Made by a program: the position numbers and the translations under genes. From positions 372,001 through 436,000 of the forward strand of contig NZ_CP040887.1 in NCBI RefSeq assembly GCF_006337125.1: DNA of 64,000 nt. Reading direction: 5' to 3'. Below are positions 37,776 to 43,606 of the stretch, one piece after another. Position 1 is the stretch's first letter. Every line of letters begins with the position of its first letter. This DNA comes from Serinicoccus chungangensis. GTDB taxonomy: Bacteria; Actinomycetota; Actinomycetes; Actinomycetales; Dermatophilaceae. The notes beneath the pieces are model-generated. The model made no database searches. It had not been told where the DNA came from and worked only from the letters and a program-made list of their open reading frames with translations.

Positions 37776-38336
37776 ATGAGCGTGGGCGACTGGACGCTGG
37801 TGTCGCTCGCCGCGGCCGCCGCGGCGGTCCCGCTGCTGTGGTGGTCGGGCGCCGCCCCGGGCTGGACGCCTCGTCCGACCCGTCGCCGGGTCACCGGCCA
37901 CGGTGCGACGCCGGCCGGGGTCCCGGAGGCGTTGGACCTCCTCGCTCTCGCGCTGCAGGGGGGCAGCTCCCTGGGGTCGGCGGCGCGTCACGTCGCCGCG
38001 GTCCTGCCGACGCCCCTGCGGGAGGAGCTGGACGGGGTAGGCCGGGACCTGCTGCTGGGCCTGGATACCGGCCCGAGCTGGGCGGCCGCCGGGCCGCGCT
38101 GGCGGGCAGCCCGGTTGAGCATGGAGATCGCCGCGCTCGCGGGGGTGTCGCCGGGGCCGGCGTTGCGCCAGGCCGCGGCCGACCTGCGGCGCCAGGCCGT
38201 CGCGGGGGTGGAGGTGGCGACCGCCCGGCTGGGGGTGCGCCTGGTCATCCCCCTGGGGCTGGCGTTCCTGCCCGGTTTCGTGCTCAGCACCGTCGTCCCG
38301 CTCGTCCTCGCCCTCGTCCGGGACCTGTCCTGGTGA
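37776..38336 (+). CDS. TadC-like type II secretion F-domain protein
   Basis: A 186-residue platform protein with an N-terminal helix, a GspF-like core (PEALDLLALALQGGSSLGSA) and a C-terminal helix pair ending VIPLGLAFLPGFVLSTVVPL. ATG 37776 was chosen 31 bp after the TadB stop; in-frame GTG codons just upstream are alternatives. Confidence 0.85.
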   Translation: MSVGDWTLVSLAAAAAAVPLLWWSGAAPGWTPRPTRRRVTGHGATPAGVPEALDLLALALQGGSSLGSAARHVAAVLPTPLREELDGVGRDLLLGLDTGPSWAAAGPRWRAARLSMEIAALAGVSPGPALRQAAADLRRQAVAGVEVATARLGVRLVIPLGLAFLPGFVLSTVVPLVLALVRDLSW

Positions 38337-38413
38337 GGTTCAAGAACTGACCGCCTGTCGGTCTCTGACGTGCGCCTCGCCCTGAGGCGCACCCACCCAC
38401 AAGGAGGGGAAAC

Positions 38414-38623
38414 ATGAAGAAGAAGAACACCACCATCACTCCCGCTGCCGCCGTCCGCCAGCTGCGCGCGCGCAAGGACGCGGGGATGACCACGGCGGAG
38501 TATGCCGTCGGCACCATCGCCGCCTGCGCCTTCGCCGCGGTGCTCCTGGCGATCCTGCAGTCCGGGGCCGTCCAGGGGGTCGTCACCTCGGTGATCACGA
38601 CCGCGCTCTCGGTGTCGTTGTGA
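38414..38623 (+). CDS. DUF4244 Flp-pilin-like protein
   Basis: A 69-residue small pilin-like protein with the motif DAGMTTAEYAVGTIAACAFA: Gly before Met as in prepilin cleavage sites, Glu at +5 of the mature form, then a hydrophobic helix. Probably the major structural subunit. The strongest ribosome site in the cluster, AAGGAGGGG, precedes its ATG, in line with high expression. The 77 bp before it may hold a local promoter or processing site. Confidence 0.9.
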   Translation: MKKKNTTITPAAAVRQLRARKDAGMTTAEYAVGTIAACAFAAVLLAILQSGAVQGVVTSVITTALSVSL

Positions 38624-38985
38624 CACGTCGCGGGCGCCGCGGCGGCGACGGGGGGATGGTGAGCGCCGAGCTGGCCCTGACGATCCCCTCGGTCCTCCTG
38701 GTGCTCGCGATCTGCCTGACCGCGCTGAGCCTCGGGGTGGATCAGGTCCGGTGCGAGGACGCGGCGCGCGTGGCAGCGCGCGCCGCGTCCCGCGGGGAGG
38801 TGACCGGCACGGTCCGACAGGCCGCCCTCCGGCTCGCGCCGCAGGGCGCCACGGTCCGGGTCGAGGAGGACGCCGCCGGGGTGCAGGTGGTCGTCGAGGC
38901 CCGGCCCCGGGCCCGGCTGCTGCCTGGCCTGCCCGGTGCGGCAGCGACCGCGCGGGCCGCCTGGGAGCCCGGAGTCGGCCCATGA
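38620..38985 (+). CDS. TadE-family pilus protein
   Basis: A 121-residue minor pilin-like protein. GGMVSAELALTIPSVLLVLA gives the prepilin-like Glu and the single hydrophobic helix, followed by a region with two of the usual features (DQVRCEDAARVAARAASRGE). GTG 38620 overlaps the DUF4244 stop, and its own stop overlaps the next start (ATGA). Confidence 0.88.
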   Translation: MTRRGRRGGDGGMVSAELALTIPSVLLVLAICLTALSLGVDQVRCEDAARVAARAASRGEVTGTVRQAALRLAPQGATVRVEEDAAGVQVVVEARPRARLLPGLPGAAATARAAWEPGVGP

Positions 38986-39968
38986 GCCGGTGGCCGTCGC
39001 TGCCGGGGGAGGGGCGCCGCGTGAGCCGGTCGTCCTCCGGTCACGGCCAGGATCAGGCCCAACCGCCCCGCGGCCCGGCGGAGGCGCCACTGCCCCGCGG
39101 CCCGGCCGAGGCGCCACGACATCGCGGACCGGGTGAGGCACGACGAGACCGCACCGGGGGTGCGGCATCGCGACCCAGCCACCTGCCTGAGGCATCACGA
39201 CACCGTGCTCCGGATGAGGCATCACGACACCGTGGCCCACCTGAGGCATCACGGCCCCGCAGCTGGGGTGCGGCGCCACGACATCGCGGACCGGGTGAGG
39301 CACGACGAGACCGCACCGGGGGTGCGGCATCGCGACCCAGCCACCTGCCTGAGGCTTCACGACACCGTGCTCCGGATGAGGCATCACGACACCGTGGCCC
39401 ACCTGAGGCATCACGACACCGTGGCCCACCTGAGGCATCACGACACCGTGGCCCACCTGAGGCATCACGGCCCCGCAGCTGGGGTGCGGCACCGCGACAC
39501 CACGGCACAGCCGAGGCAGGGCGATCCTGCGGCCGGCGCGGTCCCACGGCGGGGGTGTGCCGAGAGGGTGGATCGGCCGTGGTCCTGGCCATCGGCGTCG
39601 TCGCAGGCCTGAGCACCGTCCTGGTGCTGGCTCTGGGCCTTGTGGCCGTCCTCGTCGCCGGTCAGCAGGCGCGGACCGCCGCCGACCTGGCGGCGCTGGC
39701 CGCCGCCGGTCAGCTCGTGCAGGGCGTCGACCACGCCACCGCCTGCGACGAGGCCCGTGACCTCGCGCAGCAGCACGGGGTGACGGTCCGCGGCTGCACC
39801 GTCGGTCGGGGAGGGTCATCCCCCGTGCCCGAGATCACGCTCGAGGTCGAGCGCGCCGTGGCCGGCACGCGGTGGACGGTCGGCGTCACCGCGAGGGCCG
39901 GGGCGACGACGACGGATCCCGAGCTGACTCCCCAGCGGCGGGCTCCGGACCAGGGGCGAGGGGCGTGA
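38982..39968 (+). CDS. TadE-like protein (Rv3654c family) with N-terminal nonapeptide repeat domain
   Basis: The C-terminal ~138 residues (from REGGSAVVLAIGVVAGL) are the TadE-like family of the DECH-helicase/secretion neighbourhood: one hydrophobic helix, then ARTAADLAALAAAGQLVQGV and a Cys pair. Upstream, in the same frame and starting at ATG 38982, which overlaps the TadE stop, there are ~25 residues and then eighteen 9-residue Arg/His/Pro-rich repeats (residues 26-187). The normal family protein is ~110-140 residues, so this one (328) carries an unusual repetitive, strongly basic region ahead of its membrane helix, expected to face the cytoplasm. A GTG at 39555 could start a normal-length protein. 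The synonymous pattern of repeat differences supports translation of the repeats. Confidence 0.78.
   Translation: MSRWPSLPGEGRRVSRSSSGHGQDQAQPPRGPAEAPLPRGPAEAPRHRGPGEARRDRTGGAASRPSHLPEASRHRAPDEASRHRGPPEASRPRSWGAAPRHRGPGEARRDRTGGAASRPSHLPEASRHRAPDEASRHRGPPEASRHRGPPEASRHRGPPEASRPRSWGAAPRHHGTAEAGRSCGRRGPTAGVCREGGSAVVLAIGVVAGLSTVLVLALGLVAVLVAGQQARTAADLAALAAAGQLVQGVDHATACDEARDLAQQHGVTVRGCTVGRGGSSPVPEITLEVERAVAGTRWTVGVTARAGATTTDPELTPQRRAPDQGRGA
39057..39542 (+). repeat. Eighteen tandem 27-bp repeats encoding nonapeptides
   Basis: The units read APRHRGPGE, ARRDRTGGA, ASRPSHLPE, ASRHRAPDE, ASRHRGPPE, ASRPRSWGA and variants. A block of six units (162 bp) occurs twice, at 39111 and 39273, and the unit ASRHRGPPE is present three times in a row in the second block. 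Comparing units 3 and 7, five of nine codons differ only synonymously (GCG/GCA, CAT/CAC, CGC/CGT, GGA/GGC, CCG/CCA). The period is a multiple of three, so other frames also stay open. Confidence 0.9.
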
Positions 39969-40700
39969 CGGTCGGCGCAGGCCACCCGACATCGTGCGCG
40001 TCCGTGGCCCCATCAGGGCCACGACCGCACACGATGCCGGCAGGGGTCCGAGGCTGTGCGCTTCCTTGGCCCCATGAGGGCCATAAGCGCACACGATGCC
40101 GGCAGGGGTCCGAGGCTGTGCGCTTCCTTGGCCCCATGAGGGCCATAAGCGCACACGATGCCAGCACGGGGCCGGAGACTGCGCGCGTCCGGCGCCCCCT
40201 GAGGGCCACCACCGTGCACGGTCAGGGCACGGTCTGGGCCCGGCGACGACGATGCCCTCGTTCCCCTGCGCTGGCAGAGCCGTCAGGCCTCTCGGTGTGC
40301 GGTGCCGGGTGGGTGCCCACCCCGGGAAGGGCCAGGGCGTGACGGTCGGCGCAGGCCATCCGACATCGTGCGCTTGCGTGGCCCCGTAAGGGCCACGACC
40401 TCACACACGAGGGCCCCATAGGGGCCGGAGACTGTGCGCGCTGATGGCCCCCTGAGGGCCACGACCGCACACGATGGCCGTGGAGGCCCGAGACTGTGCG
40501 CGTTTCATGGCCCGGTGAGGGCCATAAGCGCACGCGATGTCAGCAAGTGCGAGAGACTGTGCGCGTCCGTGGCCCCGTGAGGGCCACCACCGCGCACGGT
40601 CAGGGCACGGTATGGGTCCGGCGGCGACGATGCCCTCGTTCTCCTGCGCTGGCAGAGCCGTCACGCATCTCGGGTGTGCGGTGCCGGATGGGTGCCTGCC
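39961..40700. repeat. Array of eight nested-hairpin repeats in two ~374-bp copies
   Basis: This fills the 749 bp between the convergent stops at 39968 and 40718. Eight units begin near 39994, 40055, 40117, 40180, 40368, 40433, 40495 and 40558 (spacing 61-65). The units at 40055 and 40117 are identical: outer arms TGTGCGCTT/AAGCGCACA enclose inner arms TGGCCC/GGGCCA around the loop CATGA. The first four units and their ~120 bp tail are repeated as the second four and tail, offset 374 bp with ~10-15% divergence by eye. The copy begins at GGGCGTGACGGTCGGCGCAG, which in copy one contains the TGA of the preceding gene. Open frames here are artefacts of the repeats. Confidence 0.88.
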
Positions 40701-40717
40701 CGGCACCGGGCGTGGGC

Positions 40718-41185
40718 TCAGGCGCCGGGGCCGGTGGTGGGTCGGCCGGTCGAGGTACCGGTCCCCGGCCCCGTTCCCGTCCCGGGGCCGGACCCGCCGG
40801 GGGTCTGCCGCGGCAGGATGGGGGTGGACCGGTCGTCCCGGGTCGCGGGGCCGTCGGTGCCCTGCTGCCGTCCGTCGGTGCTGCCCAGGCGGGCGGCGTC
40901 CCGCTCGCGCTCGATGCGCCGGTCGGAGTCCTTGGCCTGGCGACGCAGCTCACGGACCTCGCGGGCCCGACGTGCCTTGGAGCGGGTCCCGACCGCCAGC
41001 AGCCAGAGCCCGCTCGTGGCGGCCGCCAGGGTGATGCCGCCCACGACGAAGAGCCAGATCGGGGTGATCTCCACGTTGAGGACGCCGTAGGAGATCTGGA
41101 CGGGGTCCATGCCACGGGTGGCCAGCCACATGTAGACCATCACCGCCAGGGCGACGAGCAGCAGGACGACTCCGAAGACGACCAT
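40718..41185 (-). CDS. LapA-like two-helix membrane protein
   Basis: A 155-residue protein: transmembrane helix 1 (VVFGVVLLLVALAVMVYMWL), a short loop, transmembrane helix 2 (PIWLFVVGGITLAAATSGLW), a basic coiled-coil-like stretch (RREVRELRRQAKDSDRRIERER-like, residues ~70-98) and a Gly/Thr/Pro-rich tail. This is the LapA/DUF1049-like layout; the function is unknown. GAAAGGATC just before the ATG is a good ribosome site. It lies between the hairpin array and the helicase gene. Confidence 0.65.
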   Translation of the reverse strand: MVVFGVVLLLVALAVMVYMWLATRGMDPVQISYGVLNVEITPIWLFVVGGITLAAATSGLWLLAVGTRSKARRAREVRELRRQAKDSDRRIERERDAARLGSTDGRQQGTDGPATRDDRSTPILPRQTPGGSGPGTGTGPGTGTSTGRPTTGPGA

Positions 41186-41287
41186 GGCGGATCCTTTCGT
41201 GGAGGGAGGGCCCCAGCAGGAGCCTGACGACGGGCCCGACCCGTCGGGCCCGAGACTAGCGCAGGCGGTCGGTGCCGGCGCTGCGGT

Positions 41288-43606
41288 TCAGCCGGTGGGG
41301 AGGACGACCTCGCGCTCGCTCAGCAGGTGGCTCAGCACGGCGACCGCGCCGGCCTTGTCCAGGGGCTCGTTGCCGTTGCCGCACTTGGGTGACTGGACGC
41401 ACGCCGGGCAGCCGCGGGCGCACCGGCAGCTCTCCACGAGGTCCCGGGTCGCGGACAGCCACCGGACGGCCTCACGGAAGGCCCGGTTGCTGAACCCCGC
41501 CCCTCCCGGGTAGCCGTCGTAGACCATGACGGTCGGCAGCCCGGTGTCCGGGTGCAGCGCCGTGGACACGCCGCCGATGTCCCAACGGTCGCAGGTGGCG
41601 AGCAGAGGCAGCATGCCGATGGAGGCGTGCTCAGCCGCGTGCAGCGCCCCGGGGACGTCCTGCTCGGCCAGCCCGGCGAGCGCGAGCTCCTCCGGGGGCA
41701 GGGTCCACCAGACGGCCTGGGTGACGAGGGTCCGGGCGGGCAGGTCGAGCGGGTGCGTGCCGATGACGCTCCCGTCGGGCAGCACCCGCTGGAACGCCGT
41801 GACCTGCGTGGTCACCTCGACCCGCCCCGAGGCCATCGTGGCGGCGCCCCACCGCTGCTCGGTGTGACTGGCGCGGATGCGGAAGCTGCTCTCGCTGCGC
41901 GCCCTGGTCGTCCAGCCGGGGTCCCCGTGGACCACCAGCGCCACCGACCCGTCGAGGTCGAGCGCGGTGACGACGTAGGGCTCGCCCTGGTGCACGTAGA
42001 CGGCGCCCTCGTGCACCGTCGTCAGGGCCCGGGCCTCGTCGACCGTGCCGAGGACCCGCCCGCTGCGGCTGTCGACGATCTGCACCGTCTGGCCGGCACC
42101 CCGCAGGGCCACGTGGTCGCTCGCCCGGTCCGGACGGGCCCAGTACCACCCGGTCGGCCGGGCCCGCAGCACGCCGCCCACGACGAGCTGCTCGGCCAGC
42201 CCGCGCAGCCCGGTGCCGAACCACCTCTCGTCCTGCTCGGTGAGCGGGAGCTCGGCGGCGGCCGCGGCGAGGTGCGGCCCGAGGACGTAGGGGTTCTCCG
42301 GGTCGAGCACGCAGGACTCGACCGGCGCCTCGAAGATCAGCTCGGGGTGGTCGAGGAGGTAGGTGTCGAGAGGGTCGTCCGCCGCCACCAGCACGGCCAG
42401 CGAGGGGGAGCCGCTGCGGCCGGCGCGCCCCACCTGCTGCCAGAAGGAGGCACGGGTGCCGGGCCAGCCGGCCATCACCACCGCGTCCAGCCCGGCGATG
42501 TCGATGCCGAGCTCCAGGGCGCTGGTGGCGGCCAGGCCCATGAGGGTGCGGTCGCGCAGCGCCGACTCCAAGGCACGCCGCTCCTCCGGCAGGTAGCCGC
42601 CGCGATAGGCCGCCACGGGCGCGGCGCCGCCGGGTCGTGCCGCGCACCCGTCCCGGGCCCGGGCGGCGACCTGCTCGACACCGGCCCGCGACCGGGCGAA
42701 GGCCACGGTCTGCACACCGGCGCCGACGAGGTCGGTGAGCAGGTCGGCGGCCTCCCCGACGGTGCTGCGCCGCCGCCCGTCCTCGAGCTCGTCCGGCTGC
42801 CAGAGAGCGACCACGGTCTCCCGGCGGGGGGAGGTGTCACCGGTCACCGCCACGACGTCCTGGCCCAGCAGGGCCCGCCCCAACGGCTCGGGCTCGGCCA
42901 CGGTCGCCGAGGCCAGGACCACGGTGGGGGCTGCGCCATACCTCGCCGCGACCCGCAGCAGCCGCCGCAGCACGGCGGAGACGTGGGCCCCGAAGACCCC
43001 GCGGTAGATGTGGCACTCGTCGACGACGACGTAGCGCAGCGAGCGCAGGAAGGGTGCCCACCGCTCGTGCCCGGGCAGCAGGGTGTGGTGCAGCAGGTCG
43101 GGGTTGGTGAGGACGTAGTGGGCGTGCTCGCGGATCCACCGACGCTCCTCGCCCGGGGTGTCCCCGTCGAGGCGCGCCACCCGGACCTCCGGCACGGCGA
43201 GGCTCTGCAGCCGGGACTCCTGGTCGGCGCCCAGCGCCTTGGTGGGGGCGAGGTAGAGCGCCGTGGCGCCGCGGCCGGTCACGGACCCCGTGCCCTCGCT
43301 CAGCGCGGAGAGCACCGGGATGAGGTAGCCCAGCGACTTCCCGGACGCCGTCCCGGTCGACACGATGACGTGCTGCCCCGAACGGGCCAGCTCGGCCACC
43401 TGGGCCTGGTGCTCCCAGGGCGCGTCGATCCCCTGGCCGAGGAGCGCCGCCTTGACCGGCGCGGCGCACCAGGTGGGCCAGGGCGCGCTCCTGCCCTGGC
43501 GCGCCGGCACCGTCCGCACGTGGCGCAGCCGCCCGGACCGGCCGCCGGAGGCGAGGCGGTCGAGGGCGGTCTGCGGGTCGAAGGCCGGCGAGGTCGGGTC
43601 GTCCAT
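41288..43606 (-). CDS. DECH-box helicase with DUF1998 domain (MrfA-like)
   Basis: A 772-residue superfamily 2 helicase, the marker gene of the actinobacterial helicase/secretion neighbourhood. Motif I is STGTASGKSLGYLIP, motif II VVDECHIYRG (DECH), motif III LASATVAEP and motif VI QQVGRAGRSG. The C-terminal domain has YDGYPGGAGFSNRAF and a four-Cys zinc site in CRCARGCPACVQSPKC. The B. subtilis homologue MrfA repairs mitomycin C damage, so a repair role is plausible; the reason for its link to the Tad genes is unknown. Confidence 0.92.
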   Translation of the reverse strand: MDDPTSPAFDPQTALDRLASGGRSGRLRHVRTVPARQGRSAPWPTWCAAPVKAALLGQGIDAPWEHQAQVAELARSGQHVIVSTGTASGKSLGYLIPVLSALSEGTGSVTGRGATALYLAPTKALGADQESRLQSLAVPEVRVARLDGDTPGEERRWIREHAHYVLTNPDLLHHTLLPGHERWAPFLRSLRYVVVDECHIYRGVFGAHVSAVLRRLLRVAARYGAAPTVVLASATVAEPEPLGRALLGQDVVAVTGDTSPRRETVVALWQPDELEDGRRRSTVGEAADLLTDLVGAGVQTVAFARSRAGVEQVAARARDGCAARPGGAAPVAAYRGGYLPEERRALESALRDRTLMGLAATSALELGIDIAGLDAVVMAGWPGTRASFWQQVGRAGRSGSPSLAVLVAADDPLDTYLLDHPELIFEAPVESCVLDPENPYVLGPHLAAAAAELPLTEQDERWFGTGLRGLAEQLVVGGVLRARPTGWYWARPDRASDHVALRGAGQTVQIVDSRSGRVLGTVDEARALTTVHEGAVYVHQGEPYVVTALDLDGSVALVVHGDPGWTTRARSESSFRIRASHTEQRWGAATMASGRVEVTTQVTAFQRVLPDGSVIGTHPLDLPARTLVTQAVWWTLPPEELALAGLAEQDVPGALHAAEHASIGMLPLLATCDRWDIGGVSTALHPDTGLPTVMVYDGYPGGAGFSNRAFREAVRWLSATRDLVESCRCARGCPACVQSPKCGNGNEPLDKAGAVAVLSHLLSEREVVLPTG

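Follow-up and report, generated by a model that had tools for sequence, protein, structure and literature searches.

A 27-bp tandem array inside a Tad/Flp pilus cluster of Serinicoccus chungangensis raises the question of whether it is translated as part of a minor pilin and, if so, what allows a pilin to carry it. We addressed this in a 64,000-nucleotide stretch of the genome (the window), positions 372001-436000 of its single 3.46-Mb contig, and in the equivalent loci of related genomes.

A TadF-like gene with a long leader

The cluster is read on the plus strand and includes a tadA ATPase (TIGR03819, 36000..37004, in an open frame that begins upstream at GTG 35889), a Flp-like pilin (DUF4244, 38414..38623) whose GMTTAEY sequence fits the published G/XXXXEY site, and tadE (Rv3655c-like, NF041390, 38620..38985). 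The stop of tadE overlaps by 4 nt (ATGA) the start of a gene of the Rv3654c family (TIGR03816, 38982..39968), which in the long form that begins at this ATG has 328 codons and is uninterrupted from 38982 to 39968. Rv3654c is named tadF in an excerpt of PMC9531140, and we call the gene TadF-like. A profile search placed the TIGR03816 domain at residues 195-307 with 59.4 bits, above the curated cut-off of 50.95, and tadE, flp and tadA adjoin the gene, with a DEAD-box helicase at 41288-43606. The assignment to the Tad/Rv3654c family, as first proposed, fits, and the frame is open from the overlapping ATG as described.

Matches to TIGR03816 with E<=0.001 were present in 144 of 149 genomes of the order, and 119 of these genomes scored above the cut-off. 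The protein resembles the other members of the family in this domain and in its neighbours tadA, flp and tadE but differs from them in length: 26 of the 30 genus proteins listed have 124-162 residues, compared with 328 here, and the extra length sits in the leader, the part that precedes the hydrophobic helix. Among the five named loci listed, the domain was closest to that of an uncultured Serinicoccus (76% identity), followed by an Ornithinimicrobium MAG (46%). The matches listed from the genomes searched included no second genome of the species, and the plasmid records searched gave no match. A second, weak TadF-like domain match in a long open frame lies outside the window in the same genome (G000:C1:1065541-1065840).

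Eighteen in-frame units with signs of recent expansion

The leader begins with a part that precedes the array (38982..39056) and contains a further in-frame start, GTG 39021, for which Shine-Dalgarno pairing is strong; it ends with a short part behind the array (39543..39569) that includes an internal GTG at 39555, a poor start. Between them, at 39057..39542, we found the eighteen in-frame units of 27 bp that had been reported there, each encoding a nonapeptide, of which ASRHRGPPE is the commonest with four copies. TRF gave a period of 27, 16.7 copies and 0% indels, and the self-match of the array exceeded that of 30 out of 30 base shuffles. All 18 units are 27 bp long, though about one third of the sites differ among distinct units. 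The consensus A-S-R-H-R-G-P-P-E describes the middle units well but not the more diverged units at the ends, above all unit 18, in which 15 of 27 bases agree with the consensus. A six-unit block of 162 bp is duplicated: units 3-8 (39111..39272) reappear as units 9-13 plus 16 in a second copy that spans units 9-16 (39273..39488), with a single difference in the 162 bp (GCA to GCT, synonymous). The fifth unit of the second copy is tripled (39381-39461), and unit 7 is identical to units 13, 14 and 15. Both events had been read from the sequence beforehand, and the near-identical duplication together with the tripled unit fits the recent expansion that was deduced from them. No comparable array was present elsewhere in the 3.46-Mb genome, where the next-best match was 29 bp long (E 0.001). 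The 27-bp unit keeps the reading frame and thus differs from the frame-shifting unit of phase-variable contingency loci. The description of the encoded peptide as strongly basic was overstated, since 193 residues hold 39 Arg and Lys against 20 Asp and Glu, plus 13 His. Shifted frames also contain 19-20% Arg/Lys, which suggests that the Arg/Lys of the leader is partly a product of GC-rich DNA.

Coding signals in the array

The array taken alone gives no proof of its own translation. The units had been said to differ mainly at synonymous third positions, but pairwise comparison of the distinct units (1-8 and 17) gave 91, 135 and 123 differences at codon positions 1, 2 and 3. Computing the substitution ratio in six frames, a check that had been suggested for three, gave a pN/pS in the claimed frame of 0.78 for units 1-8 and 17, 0.86 when unit 18 was added, and 0.91 for units 3-8 and 17. 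With the same three unit sets, four of the five other frames gave 0.80-1.14 and the fifth gave 1.35-1.69. Because its values overlap those of four other frames, the claimed frame is not distinctive. The synonymous pattern is absent from the six-frame computation, and we rejected it as evidence of translation; a pN/pS near 1 among the units would fit weak constraint. GC content by codon position is 0.87/0.80/0.55, and the third-position value of 0.55 compares with 0.88-0.96 in six neighbouring stretches and with 0.88-0.92 in TadA, TadE and the TadF domain. This atypical codon usage counts against the array being translated. The coding parts on either side also exceed the array in GC content. 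A second frame, +1, is likewise open in the array (39133-39612, 159 codons), and its GC periodicity is closer to that usual for coding DNA; because all units descend from one, this periodicity amounts to a single observation.

Start codon and reading frame in relatives

We collected 191 loci (31 from the genus, 100 from the family and 60 from the order) and determined the spacer between the tadE stop and the Gly that opens the domain. The family sample was taken by score from 133 matching genomes outside the genus (G060 and G065 were passed over), and the order sample was drawn from 144 genomes with a match, mostly picked for long open frames. Two order loci, L197 and L210, were excluded because tadE had been confused with a gene upstream of it, and spacer length was measured at 189 loci, with the flawed L085 and L184 still counted. 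The median was 41 bp; the 581 bp of this window is the longest, followed by 554, 437, 317 and 290 bp. In the genus, spacers ranged from 14 to 581 bp and equalled 2 modulo 3 in 30 of 31 genomes. The remainder was 2 in 74, 1 in 24 and 0 in 2 of the 100 family loci, and 2 in 56 and 1 in 4 of the 60 order loci, so that the rule is looser outside the genus. A spacer of 2 modulo 3 is equivalent to a frame given by a start that overlaps the tadE stop by 4 nt, and such a start (NTGA) stood in the domain frame at 100 of the 131 genus and family loci and 55 of the 60 order loci (155/191 in total). No in-frame stop was present in any of the 100 leaders that were 40 bp or longer. The rest of the 191 loci are 87 whose leaders are shorter and four removed before the test: L085 is broken, L184 contains a stop and a run of N, and L197 and L210 are mis-assigned.

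Shine-Dalgarno pairing in the window was -11.8 kcal/mol for GTG 39021, -6.3 for ATG 38982 and -2.9 for GTG 39555. The last of these is 570 nt away from the stop of tadE, and translational coupling was nearly gone at about 20 nt in the six model gene pairs described in an excerpt of PMC10666635. The weak pairing at 39555, the decay of coupling, the conserved start and frame, and the open leaders of relatives together make the long form the likelier product than a protein beginning at 39555. The proposal that the array is translated is accordingly supported by the conserved overlapping start, the open frame, the unit lengths and the leaders of relatives, but not by the synonymous pattern on which it had relied. 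The nearest relative, G017, is 78% identical in the domain and has a leader of 96 residues in which no significant repeat was detected. Homology of the array leader to the leaders of G017 and G011 was rejected, as 23 and 96 of 200 shuffles, respectively, scored at least as high. With neither a significant repeat nor significant similarity, the G017 leader gives no lead to the origin of the array.

Repeats recur in the leaders of relatives

We tested leaders that were 40 bp or longer for internal repeats against codon shuffles at p<=0.01, with stretches of matching length from the domain and from the end of tadE as controls. Significant repeats were found in 18 of 100 leaders and in 5 of 198 controls (Fisher p 6e-6); by class, the controls gave 1 hit among 98 stretches of the domain and 4 among 100 tadE ends. 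The lone domain segment is that of this genome and extends into the hairpin array downstream. A separate test, in which this genome was excluded and L184 included, agreed, with repeats in 9 leaders, 1 domain segment and 2 tadE segments out of 71 each. A repeat-bearing leader is thus not peculiar to this gene. Among order leaders, 8 of 32 had repeats at p<=1/100, a rate that is likely inflated because the sample favoured long open frames. Repeat offsets were multiples of three in 16 of the 18 leaders (p 1.7e-6 against one third), the exceptions being L168 (20 bp) and L141 (89 bp). Against the 148 of 261 non-significant segments (57%) with such offsets, namely 34 of 75 leaders, 67 of 94 domain segments and 47 of 92 tadE ends, the same 16 of 18 gave p 0.004. 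Multiple-of-three offsets are therefore also common in coding controls, as they are in the significant tadE ends (4/4), which weakens the argument from offsets.

The repeats include VHPTRG in L213 (seven exact copies), REDGR in L205 (five), ARPTRS in L081 (three), APDRAV in L225 (two plus variants) and KP in L099 (five). The leaders of L213, L205, L225 and L081 are like the one studied here in the position of the repeats and in their in-frame tandem arrangement, but differ in the units and their lengths. The units look unrelated between lineages, and their origins are apparently independent. Some of the relatives' repeats are basic, some balanced and some uncharged (REDGR, APDRAV and PALAPA are nearly balanced or uncharged). 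Repeats of 24 bp (MSARSPAR) stand in the leader of L184 together with a stop codon and an N run. Short repeats also occur in the tadE leader of L247, L205 and L168, where the usual Glu5 after the border Gly is kept; 6 of 99 tadE leader segments had repeats at p<=1/100, a modest count, and tadE leaders may likewise gain repeats. L213, whose TadF leader has 18-bp repeats, also carries a tandem array of 18-bp units ahead of tadE (about 1-360); it is counted among the six but may precede the tadE start.

A conserved Gly between the leader and a long helix

The leader meets the hydrophobic helix at a Gly (codon 197, 39570..39572), a candidate prepilin-peptidase site. A Gly occupies this border in all 190 loci that have a residue at the position. 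Two residues earlier, 181 of 183 loci have Glu or Asp, and the residue that follows the border position is Ser or Ala in 189 of 191. AlphaFold2 modelled residues 1-190 of the leader without secondary structure, at a pLDDT of 44-55 in ten-residue blocks, so that the leader is predicted to be disordered. In the part that follows (39567..39902), which makes up most of the TIGR03816 domain, the model has a helix of 51 residues (196-246) and a small alpha/beta part with a short helix and three strands; the blocks between 201 and 280 reached a pLDDT of 88-96. Two Cys of this part (C255 and C272) are conserved in 190 of 191 and 190 of 190 loci, a feature of the loci collected here and not of the curated family definition. 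Among the 50 matches listed from a structure comparison of the model were proteins of a common arrangement and no pilin.

An excerpt of PMC10191384 describes prepilin leaders as hydrophilic, variable in length, ending in a Gly or Ala, and remaining in the cytoplasm, where they are removed. The leader shares with class III (prepilin) leaders, including the long ones of type IVb pilins, its hydrophilic character, its position before a long hydrophobic helix, the border Gly and the variable length. It differs in its approximately 197 residues with tandem repeats and in the residue at position 5 after the border, which is Leu here and Glu in 0 of 191 loci. Because this Glu5, usual though not universal, is absent from all 191 loci, cleavage is putative and uncertain, and the leader is better said to work like a class III signal than to be one. 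The genome encodes one candidate prepilin peptidase (PF01478), located away from the Tad cluster; actinobacterial tad clusters typically lack a peptidase gene of their own, according to an excerpt of PMC4322843. The border Gly, the long helix and the conserved Cys pair beyond it fit the placement of the N-terminal side in the cytoplasm, as originally suggested.

A probably tolerant leader and the alternatives to it

We consider it probable that the array is translated as the leader of a TadF-like minor pilin and that this leader, cytoplasmic, disordered and under weak constraint, tolerates in-frame repeat growth and has no specific role. Its translation would be coupled to that of tadE through the 4-nt start/stop overlap, and the only strong demands on it would seemingly be to stay in frame, to be hydrophilic and to end in a Gly immediately ahead of the hydrophobic helix. 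With so little demanded of the leader, tandem duplications in multiples of three would persist, and the 27-bp unit could have grown to 18 copies partly through the recent 162-bp duplication and the triplication of one unit. The leader would most likely be prepilin-like, remaining inside the cell and perhaps being cleaved by the prepilin peptidase after Gly197. As it may be removed, the array need not enter any pilus, and as it lies outside the folded protein and is perhaps discarded, in-frame repeats could be gained freely. Repeats probably recur at this place since length and sequence hardly matter there. It counts against this reading that 162 residues under weak constraint would be expected to disappear readily. 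One might suppose instead that length or charge is selected, with the leader serving as a cytoplasmic tether or brake on the rate at which the minor pilin is inserted, cleaved or used. Long repeat-bearing leaders in different lineages (the 18 of 100) and the net positive charge of 42 of the 53 leaders with 20 or more residues agree with such a function. We nevertheless think it unlikely: the median spacer implies that most species manage with a short leader, the units have no obvious common motif, pN/pS between them is near 1, and the Arg/Lys content appears partly GC-driven.

If the array were instead an untranslated minisatellite that separates tadE from a short gene with its start at GTG 39555, this would account for its low GC3, its lower GC content and the lack of synonymous bias. 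This alternative also seems unlikely, given the poor Shine-Dalgarno pairing of that start and its distance from the tadE stop relative to the reach of coupling in the model pairs (PMC10666635, in excerpt), eighteen 27-bp units with no stop and no indel, and the start overlap and frame kept in relatives. Still less probable is the earlier suggestion that DNA, RNA or acidic lipids are bound by the repeats, rich as these are in His, Arg and Pro. The excess of basic residues and the finding that Micrococcus luteus needs Flp pili for DNA uptake (PMC4322843, in excerpt, which also describes its tadE/F genes as required for Flp at the cell surface) speak for it, but a prepilin-type leader would lie inside the cell, away from incoming DNA, and the units at the equivalent place in relatives look unrelated and run from basic to nearly balanced or uncharged, which leaves binding unsupported. 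Control of pilus biogenesis by length, the other role first suggested, is likewise unsupported. Finally, the array lies next to a tandem array of hairpins and has the short strings TGGCCC and CTGAGG in common with it, so that it might belong to that dispersed family. The local alignment did not rise above shuffles, whether the whole array was used (its score was reached by 115 of 200 shuffles on the plus and 145 of 200 on the minus strand) or two units (39 and 137 of 200), and 0 of the 41 genome places listed for the array is a hairpin locus. Kinship with the hairpins is thus very improbable, and we rejected it.

The array is real, was correctly located and lies in an ordinary gene family. Variable prepilin leaders are already known. 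The novelty seems to lie in the leader as a recurrent in-frame repeat hot spot: among the matches listed from a literature whose subscription part was thinly covered, none described such a hot spot in one minor pilin across an actinobacterial order. The loci offer a natural series of leader lengths for asking if length affects pilin processing, and the array is perhaps usable as a length marker for strain typing; they also caution that such arrays need not be functional. A bolder, rather doubtful proposal is that Tad minor-pilin leaders are evolvable length modules in which repeat number sets the membrane dwell of the unprocessed pilin and hence the number or timing of pili; because the units keep frame, this would involve no phase switching.

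Other repeats at and near the locus

Mycobacterial interspersed repeats (MIRUs) are tandem DNA elements at the start/stop overlap between overlapping operon genes and are dispersed in the genome. The array is likewise tandem and at such an overlap, but it is single-copy and inside one frame. No Rfam family was detected in 38300-41300 up to E 0.1. Downstream of the TadF-like gene, 39994-40598 contains strong hairpins in tandem (GTGCGC N4 TGGCCC N4 AGGGCCA and its complement), with 13 pattern matches against 0.04 expected. Related copies of these hairpins occur elsewhere in the genome, for example near contig positions 130786, 310692, 490109-490390, 501900 and 621225.
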